Virus record (IMG/VR): IMGVR_UViG_3300008116_000340
Location: 1 to 27,269 of that record
Reading direction: 5' to 3' (one strand)
DNA: 27,269 nucleotides
Origin: a virus
Both the position numbers and the translations under genes were made by a program. The notes beneath the pieces were generated by a model. The model was given only the letters and a program-made list of their open reading frames with translations, was not told the origin of the DNA and did no database searches. Shown piece after piece: positions 5,290 to 27,269 of this stretch. The number at the start of each line of letters is the position of its first letter. Position 1 is the stretch's first letter.

Positions 5290-5645
5290 TAGAACGGCGC
5301 TCCTTTCTGTTGTGGTGTTTCAAACGGTGTTTCTTGACGCGTGAACCGTGGTACGCGCCACGCTCTTACTGCTCTGCCCTTCAAGAACAAACTAATTGGC
5401 TCGCCCCCGAGGTCACGAATCTTCTGTGCCATACGAGGTGCGGTCATGCCGCTAAATGCACTGCGCTTTAAGTGTGCTTCGAGGTCCTTCATGCGAAAGT
5501 AAACGCGAGACTCTTCTTCGTCCGTCCAAGGACGGCCCATAAGAATTTCTTCGCGGTCCATCGCTTGTTGCAAGTGCGTGGTGAACTCCTCTAGCAAATC
5601 TTGGAAGCGGCCTGATTGACTGTTCAATGCGCCTGCCGTTGACAT
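5289..5645 (-). pseudogene. C-terminal part of the primase in a shifted frame
   Basis: A 118-codon frame. From about residue 7 on (LNSQSGRFQDLLEEF to RAWRVPRF) it reads like the continuation of the primase: primase residues PPLWFLDVNGRRIE join naturally onto LNSQSGRFQDLLEEF. The segment FRMKDLEAHLKRSAF with IRDLGGEPISLFLKGR resembles the C-terminal winged-helix-like end of this phage primase family. The two frames differ by +1, with the shift at about 5625-5645. The ATG at 5645 has no convincing Shine-Dalgarno, so separate translation is less likely than a frameshifted or formerly continuous gene. A joined product would be about 453 residues. A programmed +1 frameshift, a real inactivating insertion and a consensus error all remain possible. 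Confidence 0.7.
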
Positions 5646-6651
5646 CCAAGAACCACAGTGGTGGCTCGGAGTTGTACTTGGTCAAGCTTGATACCTTCGG
5701 TGAATCTGGGCCGTCAGCACCGATGCCATGTCGGCGGGTGCGGCATAGACCGGAATTGCAAAAGGAGTTCAAGGGTGCGTCTTTGCACTTGTACTTGTAG
5801 TCCTTCTTTTGTATCTGCTTCGTGATCACCAACAGTTCATTTAAGGGCAGTGGTGGGCCCATGAACTTTTGGTTGTACTCCATGAGTTTGTCTTCCCAGT
5901 TGTTCGGGATGGACTTTTTGAGGTAGACCGCGATGTTAAATAGGCCGTTGTTGCGAGTGCCTTCCGGAAATCCCTGATTACATAACGCCTGCAGACAGGG
6001 CGGACCATCTTTGATGGGCGCGTCCGCATTTTTCTTTTCCGCTTCCGGATGAACGAGCGGCACTGGTTGTACATATTGTTCGTAAAGCCCAAAGAATTCG
6101 CTAAGGCTGGAAGCCTCGCCAGCATCATTGATCGCGTAACGCAGGGTTTCATCGCCCCCGAAATACGGAAGGTTAAGGAAGTTACCCGTGTCACCGCGCT
6201 CAACAAGGACTTCAGTTTGTTTCGGAAAAATTTCACGACCACTTTCTCCCAGTATGCTTGCACACGTGTTTAAGTAGCGCTGCATCTCTGCAGCGAAGAT
6301 GGGTTCTTTTGTAAACAGGAATACATGCGCGCCGCCTGACTTACTACGGCAGACAACAAGCGGTAGGTTTAACCGACGAATCTTTTCCACCAGACCTTTA
6401 TGGTCCAGAGGGTACTGATCAATGTCAATGCAACCCCATATGCAAGTATTGTCAGGACGAATAGGAATGATGCCAAGAGAAGGCTCAGCACCCTGTAGGT
6501 GACGTTCCCAAAGGTCATCGGTTGGCGGGTTCCGTACAACAACTGCCTTGCCTGCTTGTTTGCCATTCCCCGTCTCTCGCTCTATTTTGTAGGTTCCATA
6601 GGCGATATTCGACCCTTCGAATATCGACTTGAATTTGGCGATATCAGTCAT
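5452..6651 (-). CDS. Archaeo-eukaryotic-type (AEP) DNA primase, N-terminal part before a frameshift
   Basis: The frame codes 399 residues, but about 343 are genuine primase. Catalytic AEP features: IWGCIDIDQY with D76 and D78, SKSGGAH (103-109, the S-x-H motif), and GDTGNFLNLPYF (153-164). Further on, C219, C289, C298 and C303 (YKCKDAPLNSFCNSGLC) form a likely metal or Fe-S site, as in primases of TOTE-type systems and related phages. It would make primers for the polymerase. After residue 343 the frame leaves the family and becomes Arg/Pro/Ser-rich, while the expected C-terminus continues in the +1 frame at 5289-5645. The upstream AGAAAGCAGAAATG differs from this phage's usual AGAAAGGAGAAA by one base, so initiation may be weak. 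A hairpin terminator lies just upstream. Confidence 0.85.
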   Translation of the reverse strand: MTDIAKFKSIFEGSNIAYGTYKIERETGNGKQAGKAVVVRNPPTDDLWERHLQGAEPSLGIIPIRPDNTCIWGCIDIDQYPLDHKGLVEKIRRLNLPLVVCRSKSGGAHVFLFTKEPIFAAEMQRYLNTCASILGESGREIFPKQTEVLVERGDTGNFLNLPYFGGDETLRYAINDAGEASSLSEFFGLYEQYVQPVPLVHPEAEKKNADAPIKDGPPCLQALCNQGFPEGTRNNGLFNIAVYLKKSIPNNWEDKLMEYNQKFMGPPLPLNELLVITKQIQKKDYKYKCKDAPLNSFCNSGLCRTRRHGIGADGPDSPKVSSLTKYNSEPPLWFLDVNGRRIEQSIRPLPRFARGVHHALATSDGPRRNSYGPSLDGRRRVSRLLSHEGPRSTLKAQCI

Positions 6652-23865: not shown

Positions 23866-24330
23866 TCACTTGCCTCTTACGGCTTCGTATTGGCGGTAGC
23901 ACTGCTTGAGGGCGAACCTGAGCTCATCGGCTTCTCCAGCGAGCCGGATAAGAAATTCGCTATCCGATCGGTAAAGCTCTTTTCCGGTACAGCCGCCTGA
24001 TCCAACACCGGAGGCACCGGACACGGAATCGCCTTGGGCGGGGCGCTCATTCCTGTCGCGCAAGCTGTTAGAAAGAGCGGTAGCACGAGCATTAACATTC
24101 CTGATCTCAGCATCTTTTTCCCTCCGCAGCCTGTCCGCCGCCTCCTGCATATCCTGCTCGCGTTTCCTAGCTTCTTCCTGCCCTTTGGCGTAGGCCGCAT
24201 ACTGCTCAGCCTTCTCCTTGTCCCACGCCTGTTGGACCTCGGCTTTACCCGCGATATTGCCTTTATAATACCCGCCCCCAGCCGCTGCGCCAACAGCTAG
24301 TACAAAGCCAAGTATTACCCAAGGATTCAT
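23866..24330 (-). CDS. Rz: Rz-like inner-membrane spanin
   Basis: A 154-residue i-spanin. One N-terminal membrane anchor (residues about 4-23, WVILGFVLAVGAAAGGGYYK) is followed by a long periplasmic coiled coil (KAEVQQAWDKEKAEQYAAYA to about residue 90) and a C-terminal block with a cysteine pair (GCTGKELYRSDSEFLIRLAG, ALKQCYRQYE), as in many Rz proteins. With Rz1 it would bridge the envelope and fuse inner and outer membranes after the wall is cut. GGAG lies five bases before the ATG, which overlaps the stop of the small upstream gene (ATGA). Rz1 is embedded in another frame of this gene. Confidence 0.9.
   Translation of the reverse strand: MNPWVILGFVLAVGAAAGGGYYKGNIAGKAEVQQAWDKEKAEQYAAYAKGQEEARKREQDMQEAADRLRREKDAEIRNVNARATALSNSLRDRNERPAQGDSVSGASGVGSGGCTGKELYRSDSEFLIRLAGEADELRFALKQCYRQYEAVRGK
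23877..24113 (-). CDS. Rz1: Rz1-like outer-membrane spanin lipoprotein, nested in Rz
   Basis: A 78-residue lipoprotein in a different frame inside Rz. It starts at ATG 24111-24113, seven bases behind a perfect GGAGG, which is not needed by Rz and so marks a real start. MLRSGMLMLVLPLFLTAC is a lipoprotein signal peptide with lipobox LTAC; C18 would be lipidated. The mature part is Pro-rich (APPKAIPCPVPPVLDQAAVP), as usual for o-spanins. It would sit in the outer membrane and pair with Rz. The whole gene lies within Rz, the most compact Rz/Rz1 arrangement. Confidence 0.9.
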   Translation of the reverse strand: MLRSGMLMLVLPLFLTACATGMSAPPKAIPCPVPPVLDQAAVPEKSFTDRIANFLSGSLEKPMSSGSPSSSATANTKP

Positions 24331-24518
24331 TTCTTCTCCGGCACTTTGGTGCCGTCAAGCTTCTTGTGAAGTTTGATCTCTTTACAGACCTGTACCTCTT
24401 TACCCTTCTTGTCTTTTTGCATATTGCAGACTTTCTTGGTCTCCGCTGCATGAATCTGGAATACCAAGAACAAGCTTGCAAAAACAGTAACTGCCATGCG
24501 TAGATAGATAAACATCAT
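24327..24518 (-). CDS. Small secreted Lys-rich protein in the lysis cassette
   Basis: A 63-residue protein with a signal peptide (residues 1 to about 24, RMAVTVFASLFLVFQIHA) and a short basic mature part with two cysteines 13 residues apart (KVCNMQKDKKGKEVQVCKEI) that could form a disulfide in the periplasm. GGAG lies five bases before the first ATG. It overlaps the holin-like gene and the Rz gene by four bases each. It may help lysis or act on the envelope, but no known family is recognised. Confidence 0.65.
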   Translation of the reverse strand: MMFIYLRMAVTVFASLFLVFQIHAAETKKVCNMQKDKKGKEVQVCKEIKLHKKLDGTKVPEKK

Positions 24519-24988
24519 GAAATCTCCGGGTGAGGTGGTTGTACAGGGGCTGGTTTGCCAGCGTAACCTGTGGACGTAGCAGGTGCTGCACTAACTGGGT
24601 CAATCGTTGGCTCCATACGCGTCACAGGTGCATGCGTCGGTGCCGGGGCCTTAGGCGCAGGTGCGCTTGGCTTGTCCTCACGTTCTGCCGATGTAGACAG
24701 GCCCGGCGGCGTGAACATAGGCAATGCATCCTTGCCCTTGACCGCGAGGAGCGTCGCAAGACTTCCCAATATGTATTTCGACATATCGCTCAAGATTAGG
24801 AAAAATTGCTTGTCAGCAGGAGCCATCCCCGTCATCGGCTGGGTCACCCAGACCACCGAATACAAGCTAATGCCCACCATCATCACGACCGTAAAACAGA
24901 ACGTGACCGCGATGCAGAACTTAATTACCGCATCGTGTTGTTCCTGTGTTAGTGCAAGGAACTGACTGATCAATTTTAGGGGGTTCAT
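24515..24988 (-). CDS. Holin-like membrane protein
   Basis: A 157-residue protein with one clear membrane segment (about residues 21-48, VIKFCIAVTFCFTVVMMVGI) and a second, more amphipathic one (about 62-83, FFLILSDMSKYILGSLATLL), a Lys-rich KGKD junction, and a long Pro/Ala-rich tail (about 98-157). Two segments with a charged cytoplasmic tail, and the position between endolysin and spanin genes, fit a class II or pinholin-like holin that would trigger lysis. The long Pro-rich tail is unusual for a holin. AAAGG lies seven bases before the ATG. Its first 68 bases overlap the lipoprotein gene. Confidence 0.68.
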   Translation of the reverse strand: MNPLKLISQFLALTQEQHDAVIKFCIAVTFCFTVVMMVGISLYSVVWVTQPMTGMAPADKQFFLILSDMSKYILGSLATLLAVKGKDALPMFTPPGLSTSAEREDKPSAPAPKAPAPTHAPVTRMEPTIDPVSAAPATSTGYAGKPAPVQPPHPEIS

Positions 24989-25169
24989 TGTCTACCTTTG
25001 CATCTTCCGGTTTCACAAGTTGGTCTGGGCAGGTTCCGGTACTACTACAATAAGGCCGCTTGCATTCCTTCTTTTCCCAGTTATCAGGGTTTTGGCAAGG
25101 ATAGCGATACTGATCGCATCCACTAAGCCAACTTACTACCAGAATCAACCATATTAAGCGCCATCTCAT
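24921..25169 (-). CDS. Small Cys-rich lipoprotein
   Basis: An 82-residue lipoprotein: signal peptide MRWRLIWLILVVSWLSGC with lipobox LSGC, lipidated at C18. The mature part has six further cysteines (YPCQNPDNWEKKECKRPYCS, GTCPDQ, SVPCTNTGTTRCGN), so it is probably disulfide-bonded in the periplasm. Short phage lipoproteins of this kind occur next to endolysins in other phages; superinfection exclusion, as by the T5 Llp lipoprotein, is one possible role, but this is inference. GGGAG lies seven bases before the ATG. It overlaps the endolysin gene by 47 bases and the holin-like gene by 68. Confidence 0.72.
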   Translation of the reverse strand: MRWRLIWLILVVSWLSGCDQYRYPCQNPDNWEKKECKRPYCSSTGTCPDQLVKPEDAKVDNEPPKIDQSVPCTNTGTTRCGN

Positions 25170-25776
25170 AGTGATGCTCCCTGTCTGCTAATCCGATATA
25201 CCCGCCGTTAATGGCCTTGGTCAAACCTTTGAAGTCGTTCGCGTCTACAAAGCGATTAAGTTTGTTCGTCTCCCAGAACCAGCAAGCACTCTGCGCGGCA
25301 CCTTCAAAAGTCTGCATATATTCCGCTGCCTCTTGCGTCGTAATACTCAACGACGCGGCAAACCAAAAATAGTTATCCTTGCCGGTCAACTGCAAAATTC
25401 CGCGTCCGCGAAAGGCGAAGCCATCACCGCTGGCTTCATCGCCATTGCCCATGCGGTTGGCATAAACGCGATTAGCGATCTTTTGCGGATTGCGCTCGTA
25501 CTGCTTGGCGGTCGCCAAATCCGGAAAATATTTGGGGAAAACGCGCATCAGACCAGACGCGTTGTAGTTCAGGTTTTCGCTTAGGAAAACAAAGCCGCCC
25601 GATTCATGCCCACACTGCGCAAGAAAAGCTGCCAATCGTTTGGGGGTGTTGATCTCGTATTCTTGCAGCAAGGATTTGCCGCCGAGTTCTGTTTGAGGCC
25701 TAAAAAAGGTGTCGTACCACTGCTCCGCGTATCGCGTGTTCGGGGCAAACTTCTTAAACTGTGCCAGCGAAATCAT
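25123..25776 (-). CDS. Glycoside hydrolase 19-type endolysin
   Basis: A 217-residue endolysin of the GH19 (chitinase-like) fold. GHESGGF (57-62) carries the general acid E58, SENLNYNASGLM (66-77) has the second acidic residue E67, and GFAFRGRGILQLTGKDNY (119-136) is the family's substrate-groove signature. It would cut glycan strands of peptidoglycan during lysis, once the holin lets it through; there is no signal peptide or separate wall-binding domain. It overlaps the upstream membrane gene by four bases and the lipoprotein gene by 47. Chitinase is the family name only; a lysis role is certain from context. Confidence 0.92.
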   Translation of the reverse strand: MISLAQFKKFAPNTRYAEQWYDTFFRPQTELGGKSLLQEYEINTPKRLAAFLAQCGHESGGFVFLSENLNYNASGLMRVFPKYFPDLATAKQYERNPQKIANRVYANRMGNGDEASGDGFAFRGRGILQLTGKDNYFWFAASLSITTQEAAEYMQTFEGAAQSACWFWETNKLNRFVDANDFKGLTKAINGGYIGLADREHHYEMALNMVDSGSKLA

Positions 25777-26078
25777 TTCCCGTATAACCTTTCCTCAAGA
25801 ATCTCGCGCCGAAGTTCTTTCATTTTTCTGACTTCTTGCACTGCCGCCTGCGTAGCAAAGTACATGTCGTAGTACATAAAAGCCAACACAGGCATCACAA
25901 TAAAGAAGGTCAACAACACTGCCATTACCACAACGATCAATGACCAAGGGACGTTCTCATCATCGCGCTTCTCGTTGTTAGCCACATTAGTCCCACCGCC
26001 CATAGAACTACGAAAACCACTGCCGAAACCCACGCCACCTTTGACTTGATTTCCGCTATTCTTTTTCTGCGTCGCCAT
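25773..26078 (-). CDS. Single-pass membrane protein before the endolysin
   Basis: A 101-residue protein with a Gly/Asn-rich N-terminus (QVKGGVGFGSGFRSSMGGGT), one strong membrane segment (about 44-69, PWSLIVVVMAVLLTFFIVMP) and a charged helical C-terminus (EVRKMKELRREILEERLYGK). Its first 142 bases overlap the end of the upstream gene in another frame. The upstream ribosome signal is weak, so coupled translation is likely. It could be a holin or antiholin partner, or a virion membrane protein; I cannot decide. I know similar proteins from related phages but not their role. Confidence 0.65.
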   Translation of the reverse strand: MATQKKNSGNQVKGGVGFGSGFRSSMGGGTNVANNEKRDDENVPWSLIVVVMAVLLTFFIVMPVLAFMYYDMYFATQAAVQEVRKMKELRREILEERLYGK

Positions 26079-26623
26079 CTTGCGATCTGTATTAGTTTAA
26101 GTTCTTCGGCGTGGGCTACTTCCTGTTCAGCAACGATCCGCTGCCACATCTCTTCAAACTTACTCCAGAGTGCTCCTAACTCTGGCGGCGCTCGGTACAC
26201 CATTGTCTCTCGTATCTCAGCCAACATTGCATCTAGCCTCGTCGTTATGATGATGCGCCGAAGTGCCCGTCTACCAATACTCTCGTCACCCTTGTACACC
26301 TTGCTACCCGCCACCTGCTCTGCCAGTAACGCCTTACTTAGCGCGTCGTAGCTATCCATCAGCACACCCAACTGGTCACCAATCTCGGTGTAAACGTCAT
26401 TTGGGTCAGCTTTGGCTATCTCCTGCACCCGCTGCACTTCGGCGTTGTACTGTGCTTTTTGTATCGGTGTCGGGTCTACTATCTTGCTGTACTGCTCCTT
26501 CAAATCCTTCAATACGTCGCTGACATCCCCCGCTGCGCCTTTGATGTCCTTGTAAAGCTTACACCCCGCCTTGACCGCAGCAACAGCAGCATTAGCTGCA
26601 GCCAAAAGGGTTAGTGGGTCAAT
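25937..26623 (-). CDS. Helical protein with C-terminal membrane segment, likely ATT start
   Basis: A protein of about 228 residues. The frame extends upstream of the TTG at 26605 to ATT at 26621-26623, which lies five bases after a perfect AGGAGG (26629-26634) and gives MDPLTLLAAANAAVAAVKAG. Related phage proteins open with MDP and a similar AAANAA helix, so ATT is the best start; TTG is 22 bases too far from any signal. The N-terminus is an Ala-rich helix, followed by a long helical body with basic residues (KLIQIARWRRRKRIAEIKSK) and one C-terminal membrane segment (WVSAVVFVVLWAVGLMWLTT). It overlaps the next gene by 142 bases. Function unknown; it lies between tail and lysis genes. Confidence 0.7.
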   Translation of the reverse strand: MDPLTLLAAANAAVAAVKAGCKLYKDIKGAAGDVSDVLKDLKEQYSKIVDPTPIQKAQYNAEVQRVQEIAKADPNDVYTEIGDQLGVLMDSYDALSKALLAEQVAGSKVYKGDESIGRRALRRIIITTRLDAMLAEIRETMVYRAPPELGALWSKFEEMWQRIVAEQEVAHAEELKLIQIARWRRRKRIAEIKSKVAWVSAVVFVVLWAVGLMWLTTRSAMMRTSLGH

Positions 26624-26632
26624 TTAGCCCTC

Positions 26633-27269
26633 CTACTGTAGCTGCAGCGCCGAGGTCGGCGGGACGAAGTTAGCGGTATATCGTGCGTAGCCCTTTGTTA
26701 CTCGCAGGTCATCCATGTAGCCATTAAAATTTTCAATGGTTACTGTATTACCGTTTGTTCCGATAACAGGTCTTTGGGCGACGTTTAAAAGCGATGTGCT
26801 GTTAGTAACTGTACTGCCGACTTGAGTACCATTTATAAAGCCTCGTAGACTCGTGCCTGAACGTGAAACAGCAAGATGAGTCCAAGTGTTTGTAGAAATA
26901 GTTCCAGCTTGAAGTATTGCTGTGTTGTTCAGACCCAAAAGTAATTGTCCAGAAACAATAGCAATTTGTAGATAGGCTCCGTTTGTTCCTGATGGTCTTG
27001 AATCATATAAAGAAACAGCAGTAACGCTTGCTGCATATACCCACATTTCAATAGTAAAATCACCAGTACCAAACGCATACAAATCAGTTGTCGCGGCGTT
27101 CGGTATTAAATAATCCCCCGTCCCATCGAAGTACATACTCGACCCGCCGAACCGGCTCTGCGCCGTGCTGATCTGCGCGTTGCCAACAGTCTCAAGGTCG
27201 TTCTTTGCTGTAGCGTCTGTGATGCCAGCGTTGGTGAAGTTGAGGAGATACTCTACATTGCCAGATGTT
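26633..27269 (-). CDS. LamG/concanavalin-like tail protein, N-terminus outside window
   Basis: The frame is open to the right edge, so this is the C-terminal 211 residues of a larger protein. FGGSSMYFDGTGDYLIPNAA, FTIEMWVYAASVTAVSLYDS, WTHLAVSRSGTSLRGFINGT and GYMDDLRVTKGYARYTANF are the hallmark blocks of a LamG-type (concanavalin-like) sugar-binding domain, as at the ends of phage tail fibres and spikes. It would recognise host surface glycans. The stop is TAG at 26633-26635, inside the Shine-Dalgarno of the next gene. The first visible part (NVEYLLNFTNAGITDATAKN) is a usual linker into this domain. Confidence 0.85.
   Translation of the reverse strand, partial: TSGNVEYLLNFTNAGITDATAKNDLETVGNAQISTAQSRFGGSSMYFDGTGDYLIPNAATTDLYAFGTGDFTIEMWVYAASVTAVSLYDSRPSGTNGAYLQIAIVSGQLLLGLNNTAILQAGTISTNTWTHLAVSRSGTSLRGFINGTQVGSTVTNSTSLLNVAQRPVIGTNGNTVTIENFNGYMDDLRVTKGYARYTANFVPPTSALQLQ

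Follow-up and report, generated by a model that had tools for sequence, protein, structure and literature searches.

Holins are the least recognisable of the lysis genes of phages and have little sequence in common. In T4 the holin T combines a single helix with a large periplasmic domain, and the genes concerned are not neighbours. RI of T4 is membrane-anchored when it acts, forming a dimer with T (PMC11413866). In Mu, according to PMC9239132, a small membrane protein beside the endolysin and the spanins is the releasin gp25 (DUF2730), and the endolysin is itself signal-anchored. Among the 528 two-component spanin systems surveyed in PMC6139136, 182 are embedded and 228 overlapped. The stretch considered here is IMG/VR virus record IMGVR_UViG_3300008116_000340 (27,269 bases, called the window below), which has at its right end eight overlapping genes, all on the minus strand and transcribed in the order g1, g2, g3, g4, g5, g6, g7, with g8 nested. 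This segment is almost certainly a lysis cassette, made up of a GH19 endolysin (g3), embedded Rz/Rz1 spanins (g7 and g8) and five unnamed envelope genes. Two of the latter, g4 and g5, form a portable and widespread two-gene module, and it is likely that they act together in lysis. Their positions in the window are as follows.

g4, 24921..25169, minus strand: lipoprotein of 82 amino acids with lipobox LSGC, Asp at +2 and a four-Cys YRYPCQNP domain; partner of g5
g5, 24515..24988, minus strand: holin-like membrane protein of 157 amino acids with a clear helix (residues 24-42), a weaker second one, a conserved loop and a Pro-rich tail
g4/g5 overlap, 24921..24988, minus strand: 68 nucleotides (nt), constrained by g5

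When g4 and g5 were used as tblastn queries against 50,697 deposited phage records, only four were matched (DSL-LC01, MW202675, MW202462 and MW202544), and in all four g5 follows g4, the two being annotated as hypothetical or not at all. In one of them, MW202675 (L223, 3013-3282), the g5-like gene is unannotated and g4 begins with an N-terminal hydrophobic stretch, not a lipobox. Relatives are far more numerous in IMG/VR, where searches with alignments that include the phage-record members gave at least 572 g4 and at least 557 g5 sequences; the best 80 of each were kept, and the following fractions refer to those. Directly downstream of g4 lay g5 in 75 of the 80 g4-seeded loci (at a distance of 457-698 nt in three more, with g4 alone in one and the contig ending in another), and g4 was directly upstream of g5 in 76 of the 80 g5-seeded loci (three others were cut by the contig start and one was fusion-like). 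In L367 (3887-4216) the g4 and g5 domains occupy one frame with part of g4 missing, either a natural deletion-fusion or an assembly error. The flanks of 140 distinct modules, taken up to 4 kilobases (kb) on the sense strand, contained no phmmer match at E 1e-4 to g1, g2, g6, Rz or Rz1 of the window. The g4/g5 overlap was 4 nt in 64 and 8 nt in 35 of the 110 modules for which it could be scored (29 of the 140 lacked the loop motif by regular expression and one lacked a start), a tally that leans to 4 nt because the ATG or GTG giving the overlap nearest to that length was chosen.

What does accompany the pair is a peptidoglycan hydrolase. Of the 133 modules with sufficient sequence, 113 have such a frame starting no more than 1 kb past g5 or overlapping at most the last 200 nt of g5. 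The six kinds of neighbour, two of which (VanY and M15) are related, are Pfam-level names: GH19 (58), CHAP (36), VanY (9), M15 (7), transglycosylase (2) and M23 (1), with the VanY, M23 and transglycosylase seeds drawn from the modules' own neighbours, GH19 recognised by similarity to g3 of the window, and Pfam identities taken from examples. The first-pass annotation had proposed the Cys-rich lipoprotein g4 as a candidate for a new lysis or exclusion factor, and its constant company with g5 beside several kinds of hydrolase bears out the link to lysis. Two other families recur around the modules: a 75-amino-acid protein (for example, L353 4261-4488) in 54 of 140, often directly 3' of g5 and in the example without Pfam or PHROG match, and a staphylococcal-nuclease-like gene (for example, L322 4509-4916) near 26 of 140.

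Our earlier sets of g4 and g5 were partly picked by motif, and their conservation was therefore partly built in; the counts given next come from 65 distinct g4 in g5-seeded loci and 66 distinct g5 in g4-seeded loci, assembled with no motif filter. In g4 the four Cys are kept in 64-65 of 65 sequences and an R and a Y in 64. The anchor is more variable, a lipobox in 65 of 126 and otherwise an N-terminal hydrophobic stretch, the split being approximate in that the regular expression misses some lipoboxes (of the kind in L224, L231 and L286) and marks two helix-anchored proteins; from one anchor or the other, g4 is predicted to lie on the outer face of the membrane. At lipobox position +2, the 85 sequences of the window's clade have D (42), E (38), G (3) or S (2), that is, D or E in 80, with strict Asp in about half and often Arg next. 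Asp at +2, above all with D, E or Q next, is the signal for inner-membrane retention in E. coli, the rule being weaker in other species and Glu differing (PMC6469965, PMC5727369), and g4 of the window, with CDQ, has its strong form. No Pfam family was matched by more than two of 108 g4 members, and no PHROG by more than one; the best PDB match had E 0.21, and the Pfam, PHROG and PDB searches gave no sign of homology to T4 RI.

In g5, a P, two Q, an N, a D, an F and a G are kept in 66 of 66 sequences, with Q, P, Q, N, D and F placed around or in the loop, and VTQ is present in 70 of the 78 g5 of g4-seeded loci. With a clear first helix, some 15 residues of loop and a weaker second helix, the protein has the layout of a holin (one to three membrane helices, encoded next to an endolysin), the second helix of the window protein being weak. 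By sequence g5 belongs to phrog_25359 (E 3.7e-6 for the window, 2.8e-17 for DSL-LC01), a family of unknown function, while g4 has no such home. Searches of Pfam, PHROGs, NCBIfam and PADLOC with g1, g2, g4, g5 and g6 yielded only this family as a known one; phrog_1544 and phrog_721, also of unknown function, matched g5 more weakly, and no match was to an established holin family.

The rest of the chain consists of the following features.

g1, 26623 (ATT) or 26605 (TTG) to 25937, minus strand: 228 amino acids from the ATT (26623-26621), helical, with a C-terminal membrane helix
Shine-Dalgarno AGGAGG, 26629..26634, minus strand: 5 nt ahead of the g1 ATT, with an in-frame TAA at 26626-26624
g1/g2 dual-coding overlap, 25937..26078, minus strand: 142 nt
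g2, 25773..26078, minus strand: 101 amino acids, N-terminus Gly-rich, single membrane helix at residues 47-65
g3, 25123..25776, minus strand: GH19-type endolysin, no signal sequence seen
g3/g4 overlap, 25123..25169, minus strand: 47 nt
g6, 24327..24518, minus strand: 63 amino acids, Lys-rich, two Cys, hydrophobic signal-like stretch at the N-terminus
g7, 23866..24330, minus strand: Rz-like i-spanin
g8, 23877..24113, minus strand: Rz1-like o-spanin lipoprotein (LTAC), inside g7 in the +1 frame

The endolysin g3 is assigned by homology, its match to the endolysin family phrog_181 having E 2.3e-69 and its other matches being solved endolysin or GH19 chains (9eoi, 8p8e, 9ms6, 4ok7); Pfam GH19 itself was not matched at E 1. 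Relatives conserve the stretches HESGG and ENLNY, which we take to have an active-site role, and peptidoglycan hydrolysis is predicted. The likeness to GH19 phage endolysins (phrog_181; 9eoi, 8p8e, 4ok7) extends over the catalytic part; in contrast to them, g3 has no added binding domain. Nor does g3 have any hydrophobic or membrane helix by hydropathy. It just precedes g4-g5, whereas other carriers of the module mostly have their hydrolase after the pair. The spanin g7 matches phrog_312 (E 7.2e-17) and PF10721, DUF2514 (44 bits against a cutoff of 26); its N-terminal hydrophobic stretch is visible, although below the hydropathy threshold, and its anchor is taken from the family. The o-spanin g8 is offset by 217 nt within g7, in the +1 frame, in a region of dual coding, and matches the spanin family phrog_456 weakly (E 0.09). 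Among relatives the Rz1 lipobox is present in 59 of 60 sequences scored, with A, S, G or T at +2 in 59 of 59, in contrast to the D or E usual in g4 of the clade. By these features g7 and g8 are a two-component Rz/Rz1 spanin of the embedded, lambda type (PMC6139136), differing in nothing essential; g8 has diverged so far that its profile match is not firm, and its frame extends slightly beyond that of g7 in some relatives.

The chain had first been read as eight genes of membrane and lysis function overlapping by 142, 4, 47, 68, 4 and 4 nt with one nested, figures that are all exact, and the endolysin and spanin matches agree with that reading. A scan of IMG/VR with g3, g2 and g5 gave 218 fetched loci, or 219 sequences with the window, of which the overlap counts use the 86 that were distinct (identical g1-g3 stretches removed, window counted once) and carried g1 as well as g3, relatives being given the start codons nearest to those of the window. 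All eight genes were detected in 59 of the 86; only Rz1 went undetected in 17 (it is detectable in 60), and more genes did in ten. The g1/g2 overlap, for which loss of one frame in relatives had been named as the telling observation, is present in 86 of 86 (103-169 nt; 142 nt in 40). Next come g2/g3 (1-11 nt in 85 of 86), g3/g4 (26-59 nt in 84 of 85), g5/g6 (1-4 nt in 73 of 79, a 9-nt gap in six) and g6/g7 (1-4 nt in 73 of 76, an 8-nt gap in three). Overlap between g4 and g5 is itself constant (85 of 85), and the size seen in the window, 68 nt, holds in 64 but gives way to 4 nt in 18 and 35 nt in three.

Codon-level constraint in both frames, which the first-pass annotation suggested looking for, is evident within the overlaps. 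The ratio of observed to expected synonymous change is 0.83-0.93 in single-coding parts and 0.31-0.58 in overlaps (g1, 0.83 to 0.43; g2, 0.83 to 0.31; g3, 0.87 to 0.51; g5, 0.86 to 0.55; g7, 0.89 to 0.47), the exception being g4 in the g4/g5 overlap, at 0.01. Overlaps of one or two codons were set aside, and column permutation, uncorrected for sequence relatedness, gave p 2e-4 in each of the five tests (g1, g2, g3, g5 and g7). Likewise, third codon positions account for 58-69% of differences in single-coding parts and 27-45% in overlaps. In the g4/g5 overlap g5 keeps 74%; constraint there acts on g5, and the tail of g4 for the most part follows passively. In their single-coding parts g4 and g6 have 65% and 63% of differences at third positions, and both are therefore genuine genes. 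An open second frame is weak evidence taken alone, since when codons were resampled with one protein held fixed the other frame stayed open in 27-84% of trials (2% for Rz1). The order is also kept in a distant phage from Manatee Spring, MW202462, where profile searches found g1 (E 3e-67), g2 (2e-4), g4 (4e-17), g5 (3e-12), Rz (1e-7) and Rz1 (3e-4), with a g1/g2 overlap of 103 nt and the GH19 gene placed at the end. In its deposited annotation (L222, 3998-6576), g1, g2 and g5 are started late and the Rz/Rz1-like pair at 5499-5990 is missing.

The chain is headed by a gene with a non-canonical start. The upper end of the chain as first drawn, 26623, is the ATT of g1, and relatives support it. 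Located by the conserved Asp-Pro that follows it, the start codon of g1 in the 86 distinct sequences is ATT (57), GTG (20) or ATC (9), never ATG. The 66 ATT or ATC sequences, which fall into 51 clusters at 95% identity, might instead be read as cases of readthrough from the upstream gene or of a later start, an improbable alternative. It draws on the in-frame stop that lies one or two codons ahead of the ATT or ATC in 61 of 66, a layout in which readthrough is conceivable, and on the TTG at codon 7 of the window gene (26605), six codons downstream. This layout is not fixed, since the nearest stop is 9-10 codons upstream in four of 66; in all 66 an upstream in-frame stop occurs with no canonical start between it and the ATT or ATC, and in 60 one must go at least 33 codons downstream to reach the next. 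In 60 of the 66 the ATT or ATC is preceded, at a distance of 5-9 nt, by a Shine-Dalgarno-like match of 3-5 nt, and GTG stands at the equivalent place in the remaining 20 sequences (in 16 of which such a match was undetected). That AUU is truly used as the start of g1 is thus very probable, and an AUU, AUC or GUG start should keep g1 synthesis low or sensitive to initiation factor IF3. An AUU start is also known for gene 26* of T4; a literature search for AUU or ATT starts, judged by titles and the openings of abstracts, listed no paper on a phage gene of the kind. In E. coli infC starts with AUU, an ATC start occurs in Streptomyces, and Streptomyces sigR, with a GTC start, shows IF3 control (PMC5472188). 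The start of g1 is of the same non-canonical kind, but differs in being kept across a phage clade, where it heads a lysis gene chain.

As first noted, the 142-nt overlap is read twice: in the g1 frame it specifies the C-terminal hydrophobic helix, placed at residues 196-214 by hydropathy, and in the g2 frame an N-terminus rich in Gly. An AlphaFold model of g1 is all-helical and fair (mean pLDDT, the predicted local distance difference test score, 78); Foldseek matched nothing in the PDB at E 0.001, and its six viral matches are all uncharacterized phage proteins. For g2 there was no convincing family in PHROGs, Pfam or NCBIfam and no match at E 1 in the 50,697 phage records. Its residues 33-96 resemble ZorB/MotB (22 bits, E 2e-5), and FliP/YscR matched over the membrane helix; we took both as effects of composition and did not use them. 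The Lys-rich g6, also singled out in the first-pass annotation, holds up as a real gene, apparently for a secreted cationic protein; all 77 sequences have two Cys among their last 40 residues, and the net charge is +6 to +8. Outside the clade g6 has no relative among phage records at E 1, the 140 modules or PHROGs. Placed just ahead of the spanins, it could help to breach the outer membrane. The C-terminal HPEIS of g5 (24515-24540) contains GGAG just before the g6 start, and its conservation may thus reflect the g6 ribosome-binding site.

How might such a cassette work? Because g3 has no visible signal or anchor, it needs a hole in the inner membrane, and g5, which accompanies such enzymes more constantly than any other membrane protein, is the candidate for the holin or a hole-forming partner. 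In the scheme that we favour, g5 would be the holin, or a membrane subunit that lets the endolysin through; the four-Cys domain of g4 would be held on the outer face of the cytoplasmic membrane by a lipid (as in the window) or by an N-terminal helix (in other phages), would bind the conserved outer loop of g5 and would set the time of firing; g7 and g8 would breach the outer membrane. The chain would be translated as one overlapping series, with g1 and g2 as extra membrane proteins of the clade. Contact between g4 and g5 is suggested by their conserved, predicted outer-face surfaces and their overlapping genes. The logic proposed here, a membrane protein with a small anchored partner on the outer face, is all that is shared with T and RI of T4 as described in PMC11413866 and PMC8385771: we found no sequence relation, g4 is a lipoprotein or helix-anchored four-Cys protein, and g5 has two short helices and a short loop. 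For this scheme as a whole, with a holin-like g5 and g4 as its partner, we judge the chances to be about even; the narrower statement that g5 is a holin and g4 its regulator is a tentative one, with rather less than even prospects.

Several observations weigh against this scheme. Glu at +2 or Arg at +3 is frequent among g4 proteins and is no strong retention signal under the E. coli rule (PMC6469965, PMC5727369), and the AlphaFold model of g4 is poor (pLDDT 64.5). The second helix of g5 in the window falls below a simple hydropathy threshold, and in 85 proteins the charges fit an N-in/C-in topology weakly (K+R 3.0 in the N-terminal tail, 1.2 in the loop and 2.3 in the C-terminal tail). PHROGs, Pfam and NCBIfam name neither protein as holin or antiholin. 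No listed hydrolase stands beside g5 in 20 of 133 modules, five of which have one elsewhere in the fetched stretch. Actinophage DSL-LC01 has no annotated hydrolase within 4 kb, and a small hydrophobic holin-like gene precedes its g4; the two transglycosylase-like neighbours start with a signal-like stretch and would need no holin for export. Finally, at the same place, DSL-LC04 (see below) has an annotated holin with three transmembrane helices and an M15 endolysin (M15 peptidase), with no g4-g5.

The plainest alternative is that nothing here is new in principle, the overlaps reflecting a compact genome and the unnamed genes being an uncharacterised holin and antiholin, and this comes close to an even chance. 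Most of the segment is indeed a normal, very compact lysis cassette, and its embedded spanins and short overlaps are ordinary among phages, as the large embedded and overlapped classes of the spanin survey (PMC6139136) attest. What such a view leaves unexplained is the two-way linkage of g4 and g5 in places where g1, g2, g6 and the spanins of the window are missing from the flanks, and the AUU or AUC start.

The strongest mechanistic rival, although on the unlikely side, is that g4-g5 is a lysis accessory of the releasin kind, which tunes, activates or escorts while g2, g1 or another small hydrophobic neighbour makes the hole. It owes its strength mainly to the holin-like gene ahead of g4 in DSL-LC01, where no hydrolase is annotated within 4 kb, the lack of the pair in DSL-LC04 and the signal-like starts of the transglycosylase-like neighbours. 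The window, too, has further membrane proteins in g1 and g2, and the example of Mu warns against taking every membrane protein next to an endolysin for a holin (PMC9239132). Another conserved small gene with several helices occurred within three genes in ten of 104 modules with GH19, CHAP or M15; the other 94 had none, in a scan that was a weak one (frames of 60-300 amino acids in at least three loci, by which g5 of the window itself counts as one helix). The resemblance to Mu is one of setting, a small membrane protein beside endolysin and spanins; no cassette protein matches DUF2730 in Pfam, and g3, unlike the Mu endolysin, has no membrane helix. It is very unlikely that g4-g5 is a superinfection-exclusion or immunity pair that lies in the late lysis region by chance, for although small phage lipoproteins with exclusion roles are known (for example, Llp of T5) and the first-pass annotation had raised exclusion for g4, adjacency to several kinds of hydrolase is unexpected of an exclusion gene, g4 and g5 stay together and, as a weak argument, PADLOC (a library that is not a catalogue of exclusion proteins) found nothing for g4, g5 or g6.

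The phage is an uncultured tailed phage, and elsewhere in the window are encoded a DNA polymerase, helicases, a primase, an exonuclease and a virion protein; among ten other frames scanned, PHROGs gave nothing for three and a family without assigned function for one. Its closest relative found among deposited records is the Dishui Lake phage DSL-LC04 (66.5% identity over 53% of a 7.3-kb stretch), which, according to PMC10611076, falls in the proposed family 'Dishuiviridae' and has a gammaproteobacterium as its predicted host. At the g1 position DSL-LC04 has a gene for 152 amino acids that the g1 profile matched only at E 0.11 and that tblastn did not find; we claim no homology for it. In the genome collection g4 matched two metagenome-assembled contigs and nothing more, and g5 matched no plasmid; neither result points to a host.

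A literature search for a lipoprotein and holin module turned up only the spanin survey (PMC6139136). It is conceivable, if unlikely as a whole, that g4-g5 represents a new class of lysis timer, in which a holin with a conserved outer loop would be held shut by a tethered four-Cys domain from an overlapping gene, possibly with a disulfide readout, in uncultured phages that have unrelated endolysins and both outer-membrane-bearing and predicted actinobacterial hosts, and in which the chain would be headed by an AUU- or AUC-start gene as an IF3-sensitive brake. The pair deserves follow-up first and the conserved AUU or AUC start second. Gene callers limited to ATG, GTG and TTG can misplace genes of the latter sort, and g1 offers a natural system for IF3-dependent control in a phage. 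As for g4-g5, its presence can flag the lysis region of environmental virus contigs by the hundred, it supplies a candidate holin and regulator open to direct testing, and it probably helps to set the time at which the host bursts.

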